From a virus, in the IMG/VR virus record IMGVR_UViG_3300032086_001176, positions 1 through 42,376 of that record: a stretch of 42,376 nt of DNA; one strand, given 5' to 3'. A program made the translations under genes and the position numbers. Positions within the stretch are counted from its first letter, which is position 1. Every line of letters begins with the position of its first letter. Under the pieces are notes generated by a model, which was not told the origin of the DNA, did not search any database, and saw only the letters and a program-made list of their open reading frames with translations. This document shows positions 964-35,370 of the stretch, piece after piece.

Positions 964-3357
964 TTAGCGTGCGTTGGCGTACTTGAAAGGGTGTTCAGCG
1001 AACGCCATGAATATGTAATCACCCACATTTAGGTCAGCATCAGTGTTTCTAATTTTGAAGCCACTGCTCAAAAAATCAATCGCAAAAGCAGAGCTTGGCG
1101 ACTCTCCATTGCTTGAGAGGGCGTATAGCGGGTTGTCGTTTGCGTTGTAAACTTCCCGCTTGTTGTCATACATATACCACCAACCGGCAGCATCAGTTCT
1201 CTTGATCATCAAGAATGCGGGCGCAAAATTTGTGTGCGCATGTACGCCATCGGCGGACCCATTGCCGGTGTAGCTACCAAACTTGCTAAAACCTTCAACT
1301 TCGGCAAAGCAATAGGCGATATAGGTGTCACCGGTACTGTTAATCGTTCCATTATCACCAAGGCTAAATACCGTAGAAGTGGGAGCAGTCGAGTTCCAAA
1401 AATTTGAAGTATTAGATTGGGCCGCACTTTGATTAAGAATCAAGTAATAAGCAGCCGAAGTCAGCCCAGAGTGGTACACACCCCAAGAGCCAGCTGATGA
1501 TCTGTCTTTAACGATAAACATCGATGGCGCAACGCCTAGACCATGCCCAACAGTGGCGTTAGATCCCGTTCCTGTGAAACTAACAATCGAAAACCCAGCA
1601 TCAACGTTGGCGCTTACCGTGCTTGTAATTGTGCCATTACTATTACTAGAACTGCTGCCGCCTGCTTTCCAGTTCCAGGCAGCATAGGTAGCCGTATTTT
1701 GATTAGTCGTAGCATCACTAACGACAGTAAACCCGTCAGAATCAAACGAACTAATCGTAGTTGCAACAGTTGTCTCTGCAGCAGTTGAGTTTGACGCAAG
1801 CCGTTTGGTTGCGCCTCTTACAGAATCTTGCAGTTCATGGTCTTCAGAGGCACTACGTTTTTTGATCCACACCCAATCAGGTTGAAACCCAACACCCGTA
1901 ATTGAGTTAGATGAACCTGTGCCCGTATAAAGCACGGTATTGAAGTAACCCGTTCCATCCTTAATCGTCGGCACGGGCAGGTTTGCCGTGCATAACGCAA
2001 GATAACCAGCAGGCGGACTGTAATAAAAATCGCCTACACCATTACCATCGCTATTGCCTTGTGCTGTCTTGTTGCCTGCAAAACTACTGTCTTGACCAAA
2101 GTTGAACGTGCCATTGTCGGAGGTGTTGTAAGCATGAGCGCCAAAAGCGTAATACCCAGATAGGCCAGTTTTTTGCGCTATATAAGTGTTGTTTTTGTAA
2201 AAGTTGATCTCCCCGTCGTCTAAATTTAAAGCAAGCCCAATAACGTCGCCCGTGGTGTACGTTGTTCCTGTGTCAGTGGTTGAGCCATTGAAGTAAATGA
2301 TTCCGTTTGGCGCGTAGCCATAGCTGTTTTCTGTAGTGGACTGACCTAAATAACCACCAAGACTTTCGTTAGGAACAGAAACGATGCCTCCAAGAATACG
2401 ACTTGTTCCGCCCTGTGAGTTGACAACGTATTCTGCATACCACTTTCCAGACTGCATGGCCTGAGTAGAGCGGATCATTTCATACGAACCGCCGCTTGAA
2501 TTAGCCCACTCAAGATTGCCTTCGGAGGTAGAGATGTTGTTCGACGAATATCTATCAAGGGGATTAAGAGTGCAGAAATTGTTTGTTGGACTGTCAGGAC
2601 AGCAATCGTTTACGCTGAAATTGTTTGGCGTCCAGTCGTTGCCGTTGCCGCTAGTGTCCGTTCCAAGTGCAGATACGGTGCTGTTATCTGAAAAATTTAA
2701 ATAGAAACCGTTGGTGCCGTAGCTGCCGCTGTACTTTTTAGGAATCCAAGCGCCGGTTTCAGTGTCAGTTTCGCCAAAGTCAGAAACATCAAGTGCCGTG
2801 CTATCGATAAAATGCGCCTCTGCTATGTACCCATCAAAGTAAGCACTTCCAGCGGCTTGATACCTGCCAACTGCATGAGCAATGTTGTTGTTGACTGGTC
2901 CGTCTGTGTTTTGCGGCAGGTAGCTAGAAGACCTAAACGATTGCAAGCTCCCGTTTACATATAGCTTCGTCCTGTTAGATGATGTAGCCTGCGTGGTGTC
3001 AAAGATTAAAACGACATGATACCAAGCAGAAACATCTCTGTATTTTGCATCAGTATATAGATAATACCAAGTTGATCCTGTTGGGTTAAATCCAATTTGC
3101 AATTCGTCGCTTGTATTAAAACGAAATTCGCTACGCTGAGAACTTGGACCAGAAGCTGCATTAAATATCTCTTGAGATGTTCCTAAATTTGCACGCTTTA
3201 CCCAGCAACTCCAAGTCCACGTTTTACGATTGCCTGCGCTGCTAGGTGTTTGGTTTAAATACGCAGTGTCATCATCATTGAACCGCAAGCTGCGTTCGAT
3301 CTCATACCCACCCTGGCCAGACGCACCAGCAAGAAGGTTGCTACCAATGATGCTCAT
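964..3357 (-). CDS. Large tail fibre / receptor-binding protein with LamG-like and SPRY-like domains, 797 aa
   Basis: Residues about 20-210 look like a concanavalin A/LamG-type fold (WTWSCWVKRANLG, WYHVVLIFDTTQ, TKLYVNGSLQ). Residues about 280-430 look like a SPRY-type module (GKWYAEYVV, GDVIGLALNLDDGEINFYKN). The C-terminal half has repeated beta units of the sort found in marine phage fibres (FQPDWVWIKKRS, VAPSMFIVKDRS, FAPAFLMIKRTD). Such proteins bind surface glycans. The start overlaps the stop of the 253-aa gene by 4 bases. This is the likeliest primary host-recognition protein; the exact receptor cannot be told from sequence. Confidence 0.85.
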   Translation of the reverse strand: MSIIGSNLLAGASGQGGYEIERSLRFNDDDTAYLNQTPSSAGNRKTWTWSCWVKRANLGTSQEIFNAASGPSSQRSEFRFNTSDELQIGFNPTGSTWYYLYTDAKYRDVSAWYHVVLIFDTTQATSSNRTKLYVNGSLQSFRSSSYLPQNTDGPVNNNIAHAVGRYQAAGSAYFDGYIAEAHFIDSTALDVSDFGETDTETGAWIPKKYSGSYGTNGFYLNFSDNSTVSALGTDTSGNGNDWTPNNFSVNDCCPDSPTNNFCTLNPLDRYSSNNISTSEGNLEWANSSGGSYEMIRSTQAMQSGKWYAEYVVNSQGGTSRILGGIVSVPNESLGGYLGQSTTENSYGYAPNGIIYFNGSTTDTGTTYTTGDVIGLALNLDDGEINFYKNNTYIAQKTGLSGYYAFGAHAYNTSDNGTFNFGQDSSFAGNKTAQGNSDGNGVGDFYYSPPAGYLALCTANLPVPTIKDGTGYFNTVLYTGTGSSNSITGVGFQPDWVWIKKRSASEDHELQDSVRGATKRLASNSTAAETTVATTISSFDSDGFTVVSDATTNQNTATYAAWNWKAGGSSSSNSNGTITSTVSANVDAGFSIVSFTGTGSNATVGHGLGVAPSMFIVKDRSSAGSWGVYHSGLTSAAYYLILNQSAAQSNTSNFWNSTAPTSTVFSLGDNGTINSTGDTYIAYCFAEVEGFSKFGSYTGNGSADGVHAHTNFAPAFLMIKRTDAAGWWYMYDNKREVYNANDNPLYALSSNGESPSSAFAIDFLSSGFKIRNTDADLNVGDYIFMAFAEHPFKYANAR

Positions 3358-4139: not shown

Positions 4140-4153
4140 GGCTAATCTTAGCC
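4140..4153 (-). other. Inverted repeat over the stop codon of the tail-tip gene
   Basis: GGCTAA and TTAGCC flank two bases, and the TAA stop of the tail-tip gene lies in one arm. No U tract follows on the minus strand, so it is not an intrinsic terminator. It may be an mRNA stability or coupling element, or chance. Confidence 0.35.
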
Positions 4154-7100
4154 CGCTGCACCATAGCCAGTCGCTGTGTACTGGAAGTTGCGGTCAACTG
4201 CGGTGTCACTAGAGTTTTTAAACACAACGTCAAAGCCAGCACCCGTGACGTTGCTCACCTCAAAATAGTCACCACTTTGTAGGTTCTGAGCAGTGATGCC
4301 GACACTTGGCGGGTAGGCGTTGACGCCACCCAAAGCAGCCGTGCCAGCAAAAAACGCACGATCAAAGGTCACGCTTTTTGTACCGGCTCCGCTTGCAATA
4401 GCGCCAGTTGATTGCTCAGTGCGCTGCTGGAAAGTTGCTCTATAACCAACCTCTTGTACTGATACGTTTTCGTCAGAAGCCCTAGAGATCAACTCAACCT
4501 TAAACTGAAAAGCCCTGCCAAGGAATGTACCGGAGTTCAACGGCGTCCAATCGCTATACGTTGGCGTACCAGATGGGTCATCGTTGGTTTTGCGGAGCAG
4601 CAATCGGGCATTCACCTCATCAACAACACCGCCGTCCCAGTCAGGCATTGAGTCGACAAACTCAACTCTGTTATCCCATAAGTCAGACGGGTAAAACCCT
4701 GTGCCGACTAGATGCCGCTCAAGGTCAAGGGAAAGCACAGCGCCAAGATCAAGGGTGTTGGCAAAGGCATACTCACCAGAGTCAATAATTCCATCACCTA
4801 AATAGTCAAAGTTGATGATGGCATCAACGTCATCAACGATTGGTTCATCAATCTCAGTTGCGCCTGATAGCACAAGAGCGTCGTATTCTTCACTGTAAAA
4901 AGTGTTGGTAAATGTACCCTGGAACGCTGGGATGTCCGTGTCTTCACGACGGCTTTGAACTAAAAGTGCATTGAGCGGTTCAGGGAAGTCAACAACAACG
5001 CTGGTTTCATTTTCGCTTCTACGGCCACCGCTGTCTTCAAACTTGACAAGGATCTCACCTTCAATGCGAGGTACAACCGCTTCAGTTGCCGACCCCGCAA
5101 TTGCCTCAATTAAATCAACACTGCTTGTCCACGTTCCAGTGCCATCAGTCTTGTTGGTGTGACGGATATGCACACGACCGCCAACCTGCACATCCAGGTC
5201 AACTGTTGGATCCCAGCGCAAACGAGCACTGTTGGCGTTGATCACTTCAATGGTGAGGTTCTGCACGTCACCAGGAACAGCTGTTTTACCTGCAAGGTTG
5301 AAGGTGTATTTAACTGACGGACCTTCCTTGCCGATTGCGCTGTACGGAAGAACATAAACCTCAAGCGTTCCAGCTTTAAGGCCGCGAATTTCAATATTTG
5401 GGGAATCGGTTTGAATTGACTGGAAGTTATCATCGTCAAGCCTGTATTTAACAATGTAGGTGTCCGTTACATTGTCAGGGCTTACCCAGCTCAAATTGAC
5501 ACCGGTTCTGACGTTTGATCCGTCTAAGTAAAGAAATTCCTCTTTTGCGAGGCTTGTAATGGCTGATGGTGTAGCAGAAAGATCAGTGATGTCACGCTCA
5601 GCGATAACTAGGTTTTCTTCAATTGTGTTGTAGAGTGACTCGTTATATTTGAGTGCCGTAACACCAAGCGTTCCATCGTCGTTTTCAGTGACGCTTACAA
5701 CACGGAACTGCTGTGACTGAATGTTGCTGCTTTGAATCAGCCAGATAGCAGATGCGTTAGGTGCTTCACTGAACGCAGAGTCAACCGTAACCGTTACGTT
5801 GTTGACATTAGTAATGTTCCGCGTCTCAACCAAGCCTGTTGGTAAAACCACAGAAATCGTTGGGCTTGTTGCCAGATCAACTTGCAAATCTGTGTTGCTG
5901 TCCAGTACGACAGTTGTTGTAGTTGCAGAAGCGACGCGGCCATTTCGGCGTGTCCCGCCACGCGTAGGATCTGCAACGTCAATAACAACGCCAGGGCGCA
6001 ACACCAAGCCAGAGTCAATTCCAATTGAAAAGCTGACTGTTTCTGTAAGTGCTTGTTCGCTCAACAGCGCCCACAGACCAAGACGCCTTGCTTGGCCCTG
6101 TGAATAGCACCCAAATGCCTGCATATCTTTATTGATAATCCCGTACTTGGCAACGGCATCAGCGTCTTCAACAAGCTCAAACTTGACCTCACCTAGAAGG
6201 TCATAGTCTTGATAAGAAACAGTGGCGGTTGTGTGCCGTGACTTCAGGCTTGAACCTGAATAAGTAAAGATGCCATCAACAACATTGCTAGGACCAAGCA
6301 GATACTGAGAATCAGAAGGGCGATCCTGTGTAAGAACCAACGACCCAGCGCCGTAATAGGAGATGCCACGGAATACGCTGGTCATCTCTTGAATCAGGTT
6401 GTAGACCTCATCAATCGTGTTGATAACGGTATTACAGGCAAAACGAACTTCTTGGCCGCCCTTACCGTTGTCAACAAGTTCGTTGCAATACTGACTAATT
6501 CGGTAAAAGTCATATCGGTCTAGTGACGATTCTGGGATGTTTGCGCCATACCGTTCATTTGTCAGCAAATCCCACAGACACCACGCTGGATCGTTGGTCC
6601 AAGTTGCAGCAGTAAACGTCCCATCCCACACACCGGAATAAGTGATCCTTCCTAGATGCGTTGTGGTGTCAACAGTGGCGTTGCTAGGAATTGCAACTTT
6701 CAATCCCCGTACCAGATACTTGCGGCTGGGGATGGCGCTGAATTGACGTGAGTCAAAGCTCAGGCCAACAACAGCGGTGTTGGGGTAGCGGAATTTTTCA
6801 TCAATAATCTCTTCGTATGTTGTCCAAATCAAACGCGATTGTATGCGGGTAGAAGCGTTGCTGCTGGTGCGGATAACGCGAATATCAACAGGGAAAGCCC
6901 CGTCAATATCAAAGATGTAGTCACGGTTGAAAGTAGTTGAGCTTTTGCCAGAAATTGTGTACTCGTTTAGATCAATAAAACCGCCGCCGTTGTACTGGAT
7001 TTGAAACTTGAAAGAAACGCTTGCCCCACGAATGTCACCATCAGTTTCAAAGGTTTGCAAGGATGGGACTGTCATCCCAAACTTGACGCGGTTGGTGCTT

Positions 7101-7936
7101 GTGTTATTAATTGAACGCGCTACCAAGGTATCTTGGTTGACTTCAATATCAACAGAAAAAACGGTGCTAACTGCAGTAACACCTGGCAAATAAACTTGAT
7201 CCTGCGTGCCGTTCCTAGTATTGATCTCAAAGTTTTGAAAGTTAGGCGTTCCAGTGGATGCCAGAACAGGCGTGTCATTTAAATAGATTCCTTGGTTCCC
7301 GTTTTCAATCCCCTCAATCGGACCTTCACCCAGTAAGTCAACAACTTCCGCATACTGAATTGAACTAAGAGTGTCAGATTCTTCAACCGGAGGTGCCGGT
7401 GCTTTAGAACGACTGCCGCCACCGCCCTTACCGCCACCACCGCCGCCACCACCACCGCCAGATCCCATGATCTGAGCGCCAAGTCCAGCGTTGTGAACAC
7501 GGATGCCGTTAGCAATAAAGGTATGACGACCTTCAACCGTCAGGTTGTAAACCGTATGGTTGCCAAGGTTTTCACGATTGACAATTGGGCGTAGATGGTC
7601 GGCTGCATCAACAACGCAGTCATCAGCCCCAAGCGTTCCAATCTCAACAAAAGCGTTGAACTGGTTGAGTACCCAGTGGTTTGGGGTTGCATCTACATGA
7701 TCACCGCCCCAGAGAAAATACCTGACAACTGGTTCATTGTCGTGCTCATGAACCTTGAGAACCTTTGCTTCGTGCAGCGCACCCTTGTCATCAAAGCTGA
7801 TGACCGTATCACCTACTTGAATCTCACCAATCGGCTTTTGACCGCCAGGGATCCCGACAAGCGTTTCTGCCGTAAAACAACCACTGCCGCTGCTGCCGCC
7901 GCCACCAGCACCAAGGATTAATTTGCGATTAGCCAC
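4148..7936 (-). CDS. J: J-like tail-tip / central fibre protein with N-terminal Hint (intein-like) domain
   Basis: From the lambda-type core start (TLSSIQYAEVVDLLGEGPIE) onward this is a GpJ-family host-specificity protein, with fibronectin-like modules in the middle and a C-terminal beta domain. Before the core, residues 20-149 form a Hint domain: Cys20 (GSGCFTAETLVGIPGG), a TxxH motif (TPNH, Thr84-His87), and a C-terminal block ending TFIANGIRVHN, with His148 and Asn149 followed by Ala150. A poly-Gly linker (residues about 155-175) joins it to the core. I prefer the GTG at 7936 (MANRKLILG), which overlaps the end of gene I; a TTG at 7945 would add three residues. In lambda this protein forms the tail tip and contacts the receptor. 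The Hint domain could self-cleave and release the N-terminal leader. Confidence 0.93.
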   Translation of the reverse strand: MANRKLILGAGGGGSSGSGCFTAETLVGIPGGQKPIGEIQVGDTVISFDDKGALHEAKVLKVHEHDNEPVVRYFLWGGDHVDATPNHWVLNQFNAFVEIGTLGADDCVVDAADHLRPIVNRENLGNHTVYNLTVEGRHTFIANGIRVHNAGLGAQIMGSGGGGGGGGGGKGGGGSRSKAPAPPVEESDTLSSIQYAEVVDLLGEGPIEGIENGNQGIYLNDTPVLASTGTPNFQNFEINTRNGTQDQVYLPGVTAVSTVFSVDIEVNQDTLVARSINNTSTNRVKFGMTVPSLQTFETDGDIRGASVSFKFQIQYNGGGFIDLNEYTISGKSSTTFNRDYIFDIDGAFPVDIRVIRTSSNASTRIQSRLIWTTYEEIIDEKFRYPNTAVVGLSFDSRQFSAIPSRKYLVRGLKVAIPSNATVDTTTHLGRITYSGVWDGTFTAATWTNDPAWCLWDLLTNERYGANIPESSLDRYDFYRISQYCNELVDNGKGGQEVRFACNTVINTIDEVYNLIQEMTSVFRGISYYGAGSLVLTQDRPSDSQYLLGPSNVVDGIFTYSGSSLKSRHTTATVSYQDYDLLGEVKFELVEDADAVAKYGIINKDMQAFGCYSQGQARRLGLWALLSEQALTETVSFSIGIDSGLVLRPGVVIDVADPTRGGTRRNGRVASATTTTVVLDSNTDLQVDLATSPTISVVLPTGLVETRNITNVNNVTVTVDSAFSEAPNASAIWLIQSSNIQSQQFRVVSVTENDDGTLGVTALKYNESLYNTIEENLVIAERDITDLSATPSAITSLAKEEFLYLDGSNVRTGVNLSWVSPDNVTDTYIVKYRLDDDNFQSIQTDSPNIEIRGLKAGTLEVYVLPYSAIGKEGPSVKYTFNLAGKTAVPGDVQNLTIEVINANSARLRWDPTVDLDVQVGGRVHIRHTNKTDGTGTWTSSVDLIEAIAGSATEAVVPRIEGEILVKFEDSGGRRSENETSVVVDFPEPLNALLVQSRREDTDIPAFQGTFTNTFYSEEYDALVLSGATEIDEPIVDDVDAIINFDYLGDGIIDSGEYAFANTLDLGAVLSLDLERHLVGTGFYPSDLWDNRVEFVDSMPDWDGGVVDEVNARLLLRKTNDDPSGTPTYSDWTPLNSGTFLGRAFQFKVELISRASDENVSVQEVGYRATFQQRTEQSTGAIASGAGTKSVTFDRAFFAGTAALGGVNAYPPSVGITAQNLQSGDYFEVSNVTGAGFDVVFKNSSDTAVDRNFQYTATGYGAAG
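7490..7879 (-). other. Hint / bacterial-intein-like domain coding segment
   Basis: The segment encodes about 130 residues from Cys to the terminal His-Asn, the size of a mini-intein with no homing endonuclease. Splicing-active features seen are the N-terminal Cys, TxxH in block B and the terminal HN. The residue after Asn is Ala rather than Cys, Ser or Thr, so canonical trans-esterification to the C-extein is not expected. This fits bacterial intein-like (BIL) domains, which mainly cleave. There is no conserved extein on the N side: only about 19 Gly/Ser-rich residues. Confidence 0.85.
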
Positions 7937-8537
7937 GCGATTCAATCCCCACAGACAACACGGCGGAACCAGTAATGGCCCTTCCGTAAATTATGGGCAC
8001 AGGCAAGCCCTGTTTAGTGGTGTTGACAATGCCGCTAAAGCTAAAACTTTCAAGGCGAACAGCATCTTTGTCACGAACGCCTGTGCGAGATGACGGACCA
8101 GCAGACAAGCTTGGTGTTGGAGAGATCAGGGTGGATACACCGCTGAGAATCAAACCGCCACCAAGTAGACCAAGGCCCAAACCACCGCCCACTGCTGCAA
8201 ACGGAATGATTAAAGCTGCTGCAACTAAAGCCACTCCAACCAAAATCTGACCAATGCCGCTACCACCGGCACCAGTCAAAACAGGTGTGATACTGAAAAC
8301 TTCCCGCTCACTCCACGGTGAGTGCAAGCTATCGCAGTTATCCTCAGTCACACGCTCTTTACCAACCGTGACGCGATAGCCCACGCCATCCTTTTCACTA
8401 TCAATCAACCACTTTTCAAGACCAGGGAAATTAGCGATCAACGCCCGCAATGCTTGGGCTGGGGTGTCAGCTACAAACTCAAAGCGGCACTGGCCTAGCT
8501 TTTTGCGTAAAGCGCCGTAGACCTTAACGACTTTCAT
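7929..8537 (-). CDS. I: Tail tip assembly protein I-like, 202 aa
   Basis: The N-terminal part (MKVVKVYGALRKKLGQ... FVADTPAQALRALIANFPG) matches the ubiquitin-like start of lambda gpI-family proteins. A Gly/Ala-rich hydrophobic stretch follows (about residues 95-135), then a conserved C-terminal part with VPIIYGRAITGS. It sits between K and J exactly as in lambda, where gpI helps assemble the tail tip and is not retained in the virion. It overlaps K by 14 bases and J by about 8. Confidence 0.85.
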   Translation of the reverse strand: MKVVKVYGALRKKLGQCRFEFVADTPAQALRALIANFPGLEKWLIDSEKDGVGYRVTVGKERVTEDNCDSLHSPWSEREVFSITPVLTGAGGSGIGQILVGVALVAAALIIPFAAVGGGLGLGLLGGGLILSGVSTLISPTPSLSAGPSSRTGVRDKDAVRLESFSFSGIVNTTKQGLPVPIIYGRAITGSAVLSVGIESRG

Positions 8538-9240
8538 GCCGTAGCGCCTTCGCTGTGCTTTTTACATAGTAGCTTCCGTAGAGGTCGCGACTAGACAGCC
8601 TTCCTTGGGCATGATGCAAAATCATTTGGTCGCCTAAATAGATCGCGGCGTGGTTAGGCAGAGGTGATTCAATCTGCATCAAAATTGCATCACCGCGCTG
8701 CAATTCAGCAACAGGAACTTCCCTAAAACCTTCGTTAGCAAAATTGTCTAGGTACAGGTTTTCGCCACGTTCCCAGAACTGATCGCGACGGTCGTAATCT
8801 TTAAGATTCAACCCAAACTCACGCCCATACCAATCACGGCACAACGAATAGCAATCCACTAAACCAAAGACAAACTCACGCCCGACATACGGCAGTTCAA
8901 AACCCTCAGGCTGGCAATAACCCCAGCCTTTTGTTTTGGGGTTGACGACGTACCAGGGCAAGCCGCTTTTTTCACAAGCCACCCTGTCAGCTGCTGATGG
9001 GGCGGGGTTGGTTGTTGGGTGGCTATGCACAACAGCCACAATCTCACCTTTGTCTTCTACAGCTGCGTAATCCAGTGGGTCTAAAACAAAGTGTTCATGC
9101 GGTGTTTCCGCTAGGTTCTTGCAAGGGAAGTACCTGCGACGACCTTTGACCACGGCAACAAGGCCGCACACTTCTTGCGGGAACCCTGCTTGGGCTTGCT
9201 CCAGAATTTGGTGCTTAATCCCGTCAGGTAACTCAGTCAT
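8524..9240 (-). CDS. K: Tail tip protein K-like: JAB/MPN + NlpC/P60 peptidase, 238 aa
   Basis: Two hydrolase domains are visible. The N-terminal JAB/MPN domain has Glu23 and the metal-binding motif HSHP (His72, His74) with a downstream Ser82 and Asp85. The C-terminal NlpC/P60 domain has Cys130 in GLVDCYSLCRDW and His197 in LPNHAAIYLGD. This matches lambda gpK, thought to act in tail-tip assembly and possibly in peptidoglycan processing during DNA entry. The key residues of both domains look intact. The gene lies between L and I and overlaps both. Confidence 0.92.
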   Translation of the reverse strand: MTELPDGIKHQILEQAQAGFPQEVCGLVAVVKGRRRYFPCKNLAETPHEHFVLDPLDYAAVEDKGEIVAVVHSHPTTNPAPSAADRVACEKSGLPWYVVNPKTKGWGYCQPEGFELPYVGREFVFGLVDCYSLCRDWYGREFGLNLKDYDRRDQFWERGENLYLDNFANEGFREVPVAELQRGDAILMQIESPLPNHAAIYLGDQMILHHAQGRLSSRDLYGSYYVKSTAKALRHESR

Positions 9241-10877
9241 CGGAATAGACCCGCTCCAGGGAATGCTCCAAACGGCAAGCCATCAGTGCTTTTGACGAAT
9301 GTGTACTGGTCGGAGCCTTTAAAGGTGTAGGAGTAAGTTGGCTGCGCTATTGCTGTGTATTTGGTGTAGCCCGATGTGCCGCTAAATCCTTGTGCTTGAC
9401 TGGCTACAGCAAGCGTATAACGGTAGAAATACTTGCAAGTTCCTATCTGCGGCTCGCTGGATCCGCTGGATACATATGTGATCCAACAAGAAACAACGTG
9501 TTTGTTGGCCCGATAATACTCTTCAGTGACTTTTGTGTAATTGGTGGTTGAAAGTCCTGGCCCCGTGATGTAATCGCCAACATTCAAAACATCAGTGTTT
9601 GAGTACATATACTGCGAGTTTCCGCCGTTTGCATCACCAAGCTGTACACCGTAAAAAGTGCCGGCAGTCGTAAATGCAACCGTAATGTCTGCAGGTTGGC
9701 TCATTGTGATTGTCGTGCCATCAATGGCAGAAATCAAAGTGCCGCTTGTAATGTTTGTGCCGCTGATGTCCATACCAACAGCAAGACCAGTGGCGTCTGC
9801 AACGACAATCTGCGATGGGTCTGCAGATTGGATCGTGCCATTGACCGTGACAGATGTTGTTGCCGTAGCAGCCGCAGAAAGCGTAATTACACTTTGATCG
9901 GCATTGGTTGAGGCAACTGTTGTTCCAGATGGGATGCCAAAGCCCAGCACGCTGTTTCCAGCTTCAATTGAAGCTCCGGCAGTGTTTAGCGTCACTGTTG
10001 TAGAACCAACAGTTGCAGAGCCAGTCACAACATTTGTGCCAAACCGCGCACGGCAGGAATCAAGGCGCTTCCCGCAAACATCATCTGCTGCTGATAAGAC
10101 AGGTACATTCCCAGCGTCGTAATAAAACGAACTGGTGTAACCGCACTCAGCACTCCGGTACTTCCACTGACAGAGGTTGGCCACAATTTGACGCCTAGGC
10201 AGTTTGATTCCAGCAAGGTCAAATTTGCTAGCTAACTCAAAACTTACGGCATCGCGAGTCTCATTGGCTTTCCGATCCACATACCAAATCTCTTCTGGGA
10301 AGGCTGCGTTTGGGTCCGCAGTAGGTTCACCGTCAAGATACTTTTTGAGAGTACGGATACGCCGCACTTCCGCACCAGCAAGATCATTGCCCGTTGTGAT
10401 CAAATTGACGTCAATCAACAACGCACTAATCGTGCTGTTGATATTGGCCACCGTGATAGTTGGGCGAGGCAAGGTACCTGTATTTGTGTACTCAAACCCC
10501 TCTGCTGTGACTGGCAAACGGATGTACTCATTGCCGTTCCAGGTAATGTTGCCGGTTACGTCAGCGTTGACCCCGTTGTGCCAACGCAAAATATCGCTTG
10601 ACCCGTGAAGGCTGTTGTCTAAGCGCAACTCAAATAATTCAATGATTGCGCTTGGCGCAAGGCTAGATAAATCTTCGTAGACAGAACTAATCGCCGTCCA
10701 AACAACAGTGTTGTCGGTGACGGTGCTGCCAATATCAGTTGGCCATGCTGGTTCGCTAGCTGCTGACGTTCCAGCGGTAGTGCAACGAAACACCAAACCG
10801 CTGACCTGTTGCGTCGCAGCGGCACGAACATCACCGACAGCAAAAGCGGTGCTAGCAGCCCAAGCGGTGTATGCCAT
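9237..10877 (-). CDS. L: Minor tail protein L-like with added N-terminal and inserted domains, 546 aa
   Basis: The core matches the lambda gpL family: ELFELRLDNS near residue 85, PRRQIVANLCQWKYRSAECG near 220, and the cysteine set continuing DDVCGKRLDSCRARFG. In lambda gpL such cysteines bind an iron-sulfur cluster. Lambda L is about 230 residues. Here there is an extra N-terminal module (residues 1-70, EPAWPTDIGSTVTD), and between CRARFG and the C-terminal LPFGAFPGAGLFR lies an insertion of over 200 residues rich in Thr, Ser and Val with Ig-like beta repeats. Position between M and K supports the call. Confidence 0.87.
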   Translation of the reverse strand: MAYTAWAASTAFAVGDVRAAATQQVSGLVFRCTTAGTSAASEPAWPTDIGSTVTDNTVVWTAISSVYEDLSSLAPSAIIELFELRLDNSLHGSSDILRWHNGVNADVTGNITWNGNEYIRLPVTAEGFEYTNTGTLPRPTITVANINSTISALLIDVNLITTGNDLAGAEVRRIRTLKKYLDGEPTADPNAAFPEEIWYVDRKANETRDAVSFELASKFDLAGIKLPRRQIVANLCQWKYRSAECGYTSSFYYDAGNVPVLSAADDVCGKRLDSCRARFGTNVVTGSATVGSTTVTLNTAGASIEAGNSVLGFGIPSGTTVASTNADQSVITLSAAATATTSVTVNGTIQSADPSQIVVADATGLAVGMDISGTNITSGTLISAIDGTTITMSQPADITVAFTTAGTFYGVQLGDANGGNSQYMYSNTDVLNVGDYITGPGLSTTNYTKVTEEYYRANKHVVSCWITYVSSGSSEPQIGTCKYFYRYTLAVASQAQGFSGTSGYTKYTAIAQPTYSYTFKGSDQYTFVKSTDGLPFGAFPGAGLFR

Positions 10878-33988: not shown

Positions 33989-34375
33989 ATGTTGTTTGAT
34001 GACTTTGCATTCCATGGAAATTATGAATTATTGCAAAGCTCATTTCAAGTACAACAAAACACTCACTACATTTCAGAGCAACAGTTAATCACAAAACGGC
34101 AAGCAAAGCACAGCTTCCGCCGTTCAATTCTTCAAGCTTGGGATCATCTTTGCGCTTACTGCGGCGACCCAGGCGACACCTTGGATCACGTCAAACCCCG
34201 AAGCAAGGGTGGTGAAACCAAACGCTCAAACCTTATCTGCTGCTGTGCTCTGCACAATAGTCAGAAAAGTTCCGCCGATTGGGTTGAGTGGTTTCGTGAA
34301 CAACCCTTCTGGACAGCCGACCGTGAAGCTGACATTTGGTTGTGGATCACGCAGGATCACCCATATGAAATCTAG
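33989..34375 (+). CDS. HNH endonuclease, 128 aa
   Basis: The HNH core is [11 protein letters not shown] (Asp66, His67) with Asn81 and CALHN (Asn90), bracketed by CAYC (Cys55, Cys58) and a later cysteine pair that would bind structural zinc. It starts after the terminator, so it probably has a separate promoter. It is not next to the terminase, so it may be a free-standing homing-type or host-DNA nuclease rather than a packaging partner. Confidence 0.88.
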
Positions 34376-34434
34376 GTTTTATTTCTTGTTTTCTTTGCGG
34401 TAGTTTGAGACAATGCCATGACAGCTTTAAGTTC

Positions 34435-35370
34435 ATGCAGTCTGACGGCCTCAGGGATTATTTAAATGCAATTGGGAACTTGCCGTTGCTGACTGCTGAT
34501 CAGGAAATTGAGCTTGCTCGCAAAATTCAGCCTATGGTCGCGCTCAAGGCTGAAAATCGTGAGCTAACTAAAGAGGAAAAACGCACAGTCAAAATTGGGG
34601 AACGGGCTAGGCAAAAGATGATTGAGTGCAATCTGCGCTTAGTCGTTAGCCTTGCCCGTCGCTACACACGCAGGCTGGTGTGCAACAGCATGGATCTGCT
34701 TGATTTGATCCAAGAAGGGAACATTGGGCTTGATCGTGCGGTTGAAAAGTTTGACCATACTCGTGGCTATAAATTCAGCACCTATGCGTATTGGTGGATT
34801 CGTCAAAGCATCTCCAGGGCAATTGACATGCACGAACGCGTCATCAGGGTACCAGCCAACGCCTTAGAAAAAGCTCACAAGGCCAAACGGTTTCAGCATG
34901 ACTTTCACCTGATGACAGGCAGGGCACCAACCCTTAAAGAGGTTGCTGACCACCTCGAAACCACAGAAGATGTCCTGCGTTTGATCCTTGAACGCTCTAC
35001 ACCGCATTCAAGCCTTGATGCACGCACAACAGAAGACGGCAACTGCATGATTGACCTCATTGCCGACACCTACGGTATTGATGCTCCCTACACCCAGGAA
35101 GAGCTGAATGAACTAATCGAAAAATTTGAAGTTGCTTTTGATCAGCTAGACGAGCATCATCAAATAATTCTTTGTCACTTTTACGGCTTGAATGGGCAGG
35201 ATGAATTGCCCTTGACAAAAATTGCTGAAAAGCTTGGGATGACGCGCGAAAACGTCAGACAGCACCGCATACGGGCAGAACGCAAACTCAAGATCAAGAT
35301 GAATTTATTTACCGCGCAAAAACAACCGTTTCCAGAATGGTCTCTCAGCGGATTGCTGGATAACTTCTAA
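34435..35370 (+). CDS. RpoD-like (group 2) sigma factor, 311 aa
   Basis: All regions of a primary-type sigma are present except 1.1: region 1.2 ([20 protein letters not shown], residues 8-27), regions 2.1-2.4 ([53 protein letters not shown], residues 67-130), region 3, and region 4.2 ([20 protein letters not shown], 259-278). It resembles cyanobacterial group 2 sigmas and could redirect host RNA polymerase to phage promoters. I choose the ATG at 34435; a TTG at 34405 would add ten residues but sits within a possible promoter (TTGTTT, 17 bases, GACAAT at 34386-34414). Confidence 0.92.

Follow-up and report, generated by a model that had tools for sequence, protein, structure and literature searches.

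In the window analysed here (the whole 42,376-nucleotide stretch of the virus record IMGVR_UViG_3300032086_001176), the tail-tip protein J contains a Hint domain in its N-terminal arm. With a probability of about 0.66, this domain is best read as an A-type BIL-like mini-Hint cassette in the flexible Gly-rich arm of J, an accessory element that would process and remove itself. Many uncultivated, mostly aquatic lambda-related phages carry such a Hint at this place, and close relatives do without it. The cassette comes, goes and swaps between phages, a pattern more like that of an accessory element than of an essential maturation switch. That the domain is self-removing fits the evidence best, and a conditional benefit for the phage is possible as well.

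The assignment of the J gene (Table 1) is solid, as it is matched by the NCBIfam model lambda_TipJ (7e-119, 398 bits) and by phrog_31 (PHROG 31, 'central tail fiber J', 1e-221, 740 bits). On this 42-kb viral contig, J is preceded by the genes I, K and L and the tape measure gene in the usual lambda-like order. The JAB part of gene K, located just upstream of gene I, is deubiquitinase-like; gpK itself was not detected in lambda virions (PMC10721106). A DUF7483/SPRY tail protein (window 964-3357, minus strand) has the N-terminus SNLLAGASGQGG, which is similar to the IxGAGGGG arm of J, and this motif is possibly common to the tail proteins of these phages. The window also encodes a sigma-70 family factor with regions 1.2, 2, 3 and 4 (34405-35370, plus strand), whose gene adjoins an HNH endonuclease gene (33989-34375).

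Table 1. Features of the tail-tip gene J and its neighbours in the window.
Feature	Position	Strand	Details	Basis
Tail-tip protein J precursor	4148..7936	-	GTG start at 7936; 8-base overlap with the end of gene I	translation
Leader	7880..7936	-	19 residues, MANRKLILGAGGGGSSGSG; native J N-terminal arm (N-extein) with IxGAGGGG motif	translation, Hint-less alleles
Hint domain	7490..7879	-	130 residues; Cys1 ... T65xxH68 ... His129-Asn130; A-type BIL-like	profiles, predicted fold, relatives
AGLGAQI segment	7469..7489	-	after the scissile Asn-Ala bond	relatives, Hint-less alleles
Second N-terminal motif copy	7400..7471	-	IMGSGGGG...KGGGGSRSKA; flexible poly-Gly arm into the J core	translation; pLDDT <50
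J core	4148..7399	-	hub domains, FNIII-A, Phage-tail_3, fn3; ordinary lambda type	profile matches
Gene I	7929..8537	-	tail assembly / hub plug protein; overlaps J start	PHROG 32, 4e-46
Gene K	8524..9240	-	JAB + NlpC/P60	profile match
Gene L	9237..10877	-	minor tail protein L	profile match

On the minus strand the translation starts with M (GTG, 7936)ANRKLILGAGGGGSSGSG, continues with the Hint domain (CFTAETLV...DATPNHWVLNQ...VYNLTVEGRHTFIANGIRVHN) and proceeds through AGLGAQIMGSGGGGGGGGGGKGGGGSRSK... into the J core. The Hint thus corresponds to J residues 20-149, with Cys1 at 7879, Asn130 at 7490 and the junction at Asn149/Ala150. An earlier, sequence-only reading had proposed a complete mini-Hint with N-terminal Cys, TxxH and C-terminal His-Asn at 7490-7879, behind a 19-residue leader and ending at Asn149. 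This span is exact by translation, and the residues are present in J as well as in 160 distinct relatives.

The presence of a Hint domain in the J protein of the window is confirmed well beyond chance. The NCBIfam intein_Cterm model scored 30.6 bits on it (cut-off: 15.6), and a phmmer search against the PDB matched inteins at 1e-6. The Pfam Hint and Intein_splicing models also matched, but under their gathering scores, so routine annotation would overlook the domain. An AlphaFold prediction with 36 sequences yielded a Hint fold with a pLDDT of ~96, flanked by a leader and a Gly arm below 50. Compared with Hint structures, the predicted fold reached Z scores of 19.8-21.6, the top matches including 6y75 (BIL2 of T. 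thermophila), 2lwy (BIL of C. thermocellum) and DnaB inteins; in these structural scores BIL and intein matches are tied. The best Foldseek match was BIL2 from the BUBL1 locus of T. thermophila, a BIL of a ubiquitin-like locus with a putative role in conjugation. Two of the checks named by the sequence-only reading, a Hint profile search and a structure prediction, both recovered the domain (30.6 bits; pLDDT ~96 with Z ~20).

Scans of viral contigs returned 444, 525 and 561 Hint relatives in overlapping sets, and the best 80 of each were taken; as the scans depend on conserved words, copies degenerate in block B would escape them. A copy was delimited only if it began with Cys and ended in HN or HQ; three loci that run off the contig end were left undelimited. 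In all 267 delimited loci, the Hint occupies the same place in J, close to the beginning of a long reading frame and immediately ahead of the J arm. The 160 distinct Hints among them measure 129-132 residues each. TPNHW is found in 160/160, although the search patterns themselves select in part for TxxH; Cys1 and the terminal His-Asn are likewise invariant (160/160 each), and these lie outside the patterns of the 525- and 561-relative scans. Residue -1 is Gly in 158 of the 160. At +1, Ala (139), Gly (18), Lys (2) and Thr (1) occur, and there is no conserved Cys, Ser or Thr nucleophile.

Three subfamilies can be distinguished among the loci: the AGLG type, a GG[HY]R.RYP-like type (including the Oxalobacter contig L163) and a small KGG type (L290 and L294). 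AGLG hardly varies within the aquatic subfamily and is missing from Hint-less J; it may serve the reaction or have another function after processing. The GG[HY]R members L239, L241, L242, L244, L246 and L247 are located on viral contigs of 75-110 kb, from genomes larger than that of the window. In the KGG type, a divergent Hint with Lys at +1 sits at the J N-terminus between IQGGKGG and KGGRKSAA, with no second IxG motif behind it, and this type is the closest to a classical insertion. The sole copy with a possible +1 nucleophile is L257, where VHN is followed by TGSGEGRLTTVIRGAGGGG (Thr at +1).

In a scan of bacterial genomes, only two copies were found, both in J: L162 and L163, on a cyanobacterial MAG contig and an Oxalobacter contig. 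No Hint in J was detected by tblastn with the Hint in 50,697 phage records (1503 records with a J homologue). Nine records matched, mostly through classical inteins in helicases and a terminase. One of them, phiRU, is unannotated; GR11A gave the best-looking short match, and there it is an intein in a helicase. Nor was a Hint in J reported in the open-access literature searched; the papers on phiCbK and CL131 describe inteins of terminase, ribonucleotide reductase and dCTP deaminase.

The origin of the leader can be read from the alleles that lack the cassette. Hint-less J proteins begin with M..[IL]xGAGGGG..KGGGG, as does the J of a Halomonas phage, and the Hint-containing alleles have the form M..IxG[AS]GGGG, Hint, AGLGxxIxG[AS]GGGG..KGGGG. 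The Hint-less alleles therefore start with the motif of the leader and resemble the leader plus the post-Hint arm. By this comparison of alleles the leader is the native N-terminus of J, and an intact N-extein exists. The IxG[AS]GG-type motif is found in the leader of 196/197 Hint-containing loci and behind the Hint in 198/198. Unusual motifs may even recur on both sides of one locus (AST in L071, SKG in L243). A recent duplication of the Gly motif was considered as the source of both copies. The case for it is weak: synonymous codons differ between the copies, and the within-locus nucleotide identity of 0.79 versus 0.75 after permutation is an excess that relatedness can explain. In 64 disjoint pairs, pN/pS amounted to 0.11 for the Hint, 0.19 for positions +1 to +12 and 0.37 for the leader. 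The leader is thus constrained, albeit less than the Hint or the +1 to +12 segment. This constraint exceeds the need of a discarded peptide, and it favours some ligation or another role of the leader.

These alleles also alter the sequence-only reading, which had held that there is neither a homing endonuclease nor an intact extein and that the domain is for these reasons not a simple selfish intein. The leader being the normal J N-terminus, the statement on the extein is wrong and the conclusion drawn from it is not supported. Its observation that the domain contains no homing endonuclease was correct.

The cassette varies in its presence and moves between J lineages. In a quick tree of 85 J cores (with long branches elsewhere), the Hint label changes 9 times, and at least 8 of these changes are forced by well-supported branches. 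The Hint-less L124 and the Hint-containing L126 and L128 have J cores that are 97.8% identical. In the empty-site pairs L144/L145 (87.6-87.7% DNA identity) and L144/L151 (84-85%), the flanking DNA aligns collinearly to the left and right of a sharply bounded gap. With and without Hint, the relatives of the J core number about 50:28 and 51:27, ratios that describe lists of nearest J cores and not population frequencies. The histories of Hint and core can also be discordant. The Hints of L128 and L102 are 92% identical and their cores 77%, whereas L010 and L185 share 91% in the core and 64% in the Hint. In L013 the core resembles the others at only 35-37%, but the Hint reaches ~79%. From this discordance, both gain of the cassette and its replacement by recombination are likely. 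A homing endonuclease is absent from the Hint in all 160 distinct copies (129-132 residues). Nor was an adjacent endonuclease found in pairs with and without the Hint, in which the order of the DNA around J is the same except for the cassette; the HNH gene of the window is 26 kb off. The dN/dS of the Hint (0.082) is about that of the J core (0.079), and such constraint is compatible with a benefit to the phage and equally with a passenger that removes itself.

Because Cys1, TxxH and His-Asn are intact while the +1 residue offers no side-chain nucleophile, A-type BIL chemistry is to be expected. The domain would most likely process itself by Asn cyclization, with or without ligation of the leader. 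Cys1 and Gly-1 would form a thioester. Asn130, aided by His129, would cyclize and free the J chain at Ala+1. Hydrolysis would then release the leader; in some of the molecules it would instead be ligated to the free amino group of Ala+1, as reported for A-type BILs. The cleaved product would begin with AGLGxxIxGAGGGG..., and the ligated product, leader-AGLGxxIxGAGGGG..., would have a longer arm. Ligation after Hint removal would consequently leave AGLG and the second motif copy in excess of an intein-less J. Since IxG[AS]GGGG stands on both sides of the Hint, either product would retain a native-like N-terminus, and this may be why no +1 nucleophile has been kept. The cassette could then be gained, lost and replaced by recombination at its one site in J without an endonuclease of its own, and it would be harmless because it removes itself. 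We infer that the domain is active and that its removal is needed, and likewise the ratio of the products. The sequence-only reading had expected cleavage over canonical splicing from the Ala at +1, and the non-nucleophilic residues found there are in line with this.

How far the leader is religated separates this self-removing cassette from splicing without a +1 nucleophile as the main outcome, in which leader and J are rejoined and the Hint alone is lost. Such splicing would preserve a leader that is the native J N-terminus and under purifying selection, and in L290 and L294 the leader ...IQGGKGG and the post-Hint KGG would rejoin without a second IxG motif. A-type BILs can indeed splice by thioester aminolysis, but cleavage products dominate in those described (PMC4031507), and a differing account holds them to be unable to ligate (PMC7765530). 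In nearly all J loci, moreover, the second motif copy renders ligation unnecessary, and splicing as the main outcome is doubtful. Other readings give the processing a purpose. The Hint could be a domesticated maturation domain that blocks the J N-terminus until self-cleavage licenses hub assembly of J with I and L. In lambda, the N-terminal region of J indeed belongs to the tail hub, where gpL and the gpI plug are its neighbours (PMC10721106; PMC13243795). The strong purifying selection, a site that stays the same even in J cores of only 35-37% identity and the retained AGLG would all suit this role. However, Hint-less J cores up to 97.8% identical occur in collinear genomes, so that the maturation step is dispensable and no dedicated partner is needed in the adjacent genes. 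The maturation switch suggested by the sequence-only reading is thus weakened as a required step and unlikely as the explanation, although a conditional benefit may still apply.

A broader version, in which the BIL has a defined job, is put forward tentatively. Self-processing at the hub would yield J chains with altered N-termini (cleaved, ligated or with the leader on a second tip protein). These chains would govern hub assembly or the trigger for ejection, and populations would toggle by cassette exchange. The form with the leader on a second protein would require transpeptidation, in which a different tail protein attacks the leader thioester through an amine or thiol and the J leader becomes crosslinked to it. 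Thioester chemistry is implied by Cys1 and Gly-1, and the best Foldseek match is the BUBL1 BIL2, but no partner gene in the adjacent genes tracks the presence of the Hint, phages with and without it being collinear. The crosslink between the leader and a second tip protein, raised from the sequence, has no support, and transpeptidation is very improbable. The domain could in principle also be inactive, a structural remnant carried along in the virion on its flexible linker (pLDDT <50). This can hardly be reconciled with the invariance of each catalytic residue, including the terminal His-Asn, in 160 distinct copies, and a remnant is the least credible of these readings.

If the cassette removes itself, many uncultivated aquatic phages would have a mature tail-tip protein that differs from the full-length translation product, and this bears on virion proteomics and structure modelling. 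To our knowledge, the purpose of natural BIL domains is unsettled. The J Hints provide a large alignable family at one site, with natural pairs of Hint-containing and Hint-less alleles, and structures have been solved for the lambda homologue of the protein that carries them. With one site and such allele pairs, the function can be tested by removing or swapping a single cassette.

Among known Hint systems, Hedgehog autoprocessing domains share the fold (Z 19.2-19.3) and the Cys1 thioester step; the J Hint ends in His-Asn, is positioned N-terminally and lacks a sterol-recognition region, which rules out this class. The PT-HINT family (PF07591) gives a weak profile match (E 0.017), and proteins so annotated share ~30% identity in tblastn. 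This assignment is likewise rejected, as the J Hint lies at the start of a tail protein and is followed by the J core, not by a C-terminal toxin. Mini-inteins (gp41-1, Npu/Ssp DnaB) resemble the J Hint in fold (Z 19-21), active-site blocks, presence or absence at one site and horizontal movement. However, they are located inside DNA-metabolism enzymes, whereas the J Hint stands at the chain start of a structural tail protein and lacks the +1 Cys, Ser or Thr (Ala in the window; one Thr in 160). A canonical intein is ruled out by this residue, and a homing intein by the missing endonuclease. The nearest non-J Hints on the plasmids examined end in HN, have Asp or Glu at +1 and share with the J Hint the end block YNLTV..HT[FY][IV]A..[IY]RVHN.

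The closest likeness is to the A-type BIL domains, reportedly the subject of Amitai 2003 and Dassa 2004. With these (e.g. that of C. thermocellum, PDB 2LWY) the J Hint has in common the Hint fold, Cys1, TxxH, the C-terminal His-Asn, no conserved +1 nucleophile and no endonuclease. Known A-type BILs are scattered in hypervariable regions of non-conserved bacterial proteins, whereas the J Hint is always found at a single site of a single conserved structural protein of phages (all 267 delimited loci), albeit in a variable low-complexity arm. It further differs in being flanked by a duplicated N-terminal motif and in its conserved Gly-1 and Ala/Gly+1. Judged by its residues, the J Hint agrees with the A-type BIL definition though not with the usual location, and is an A-type BIL-like variant specific to phage J.
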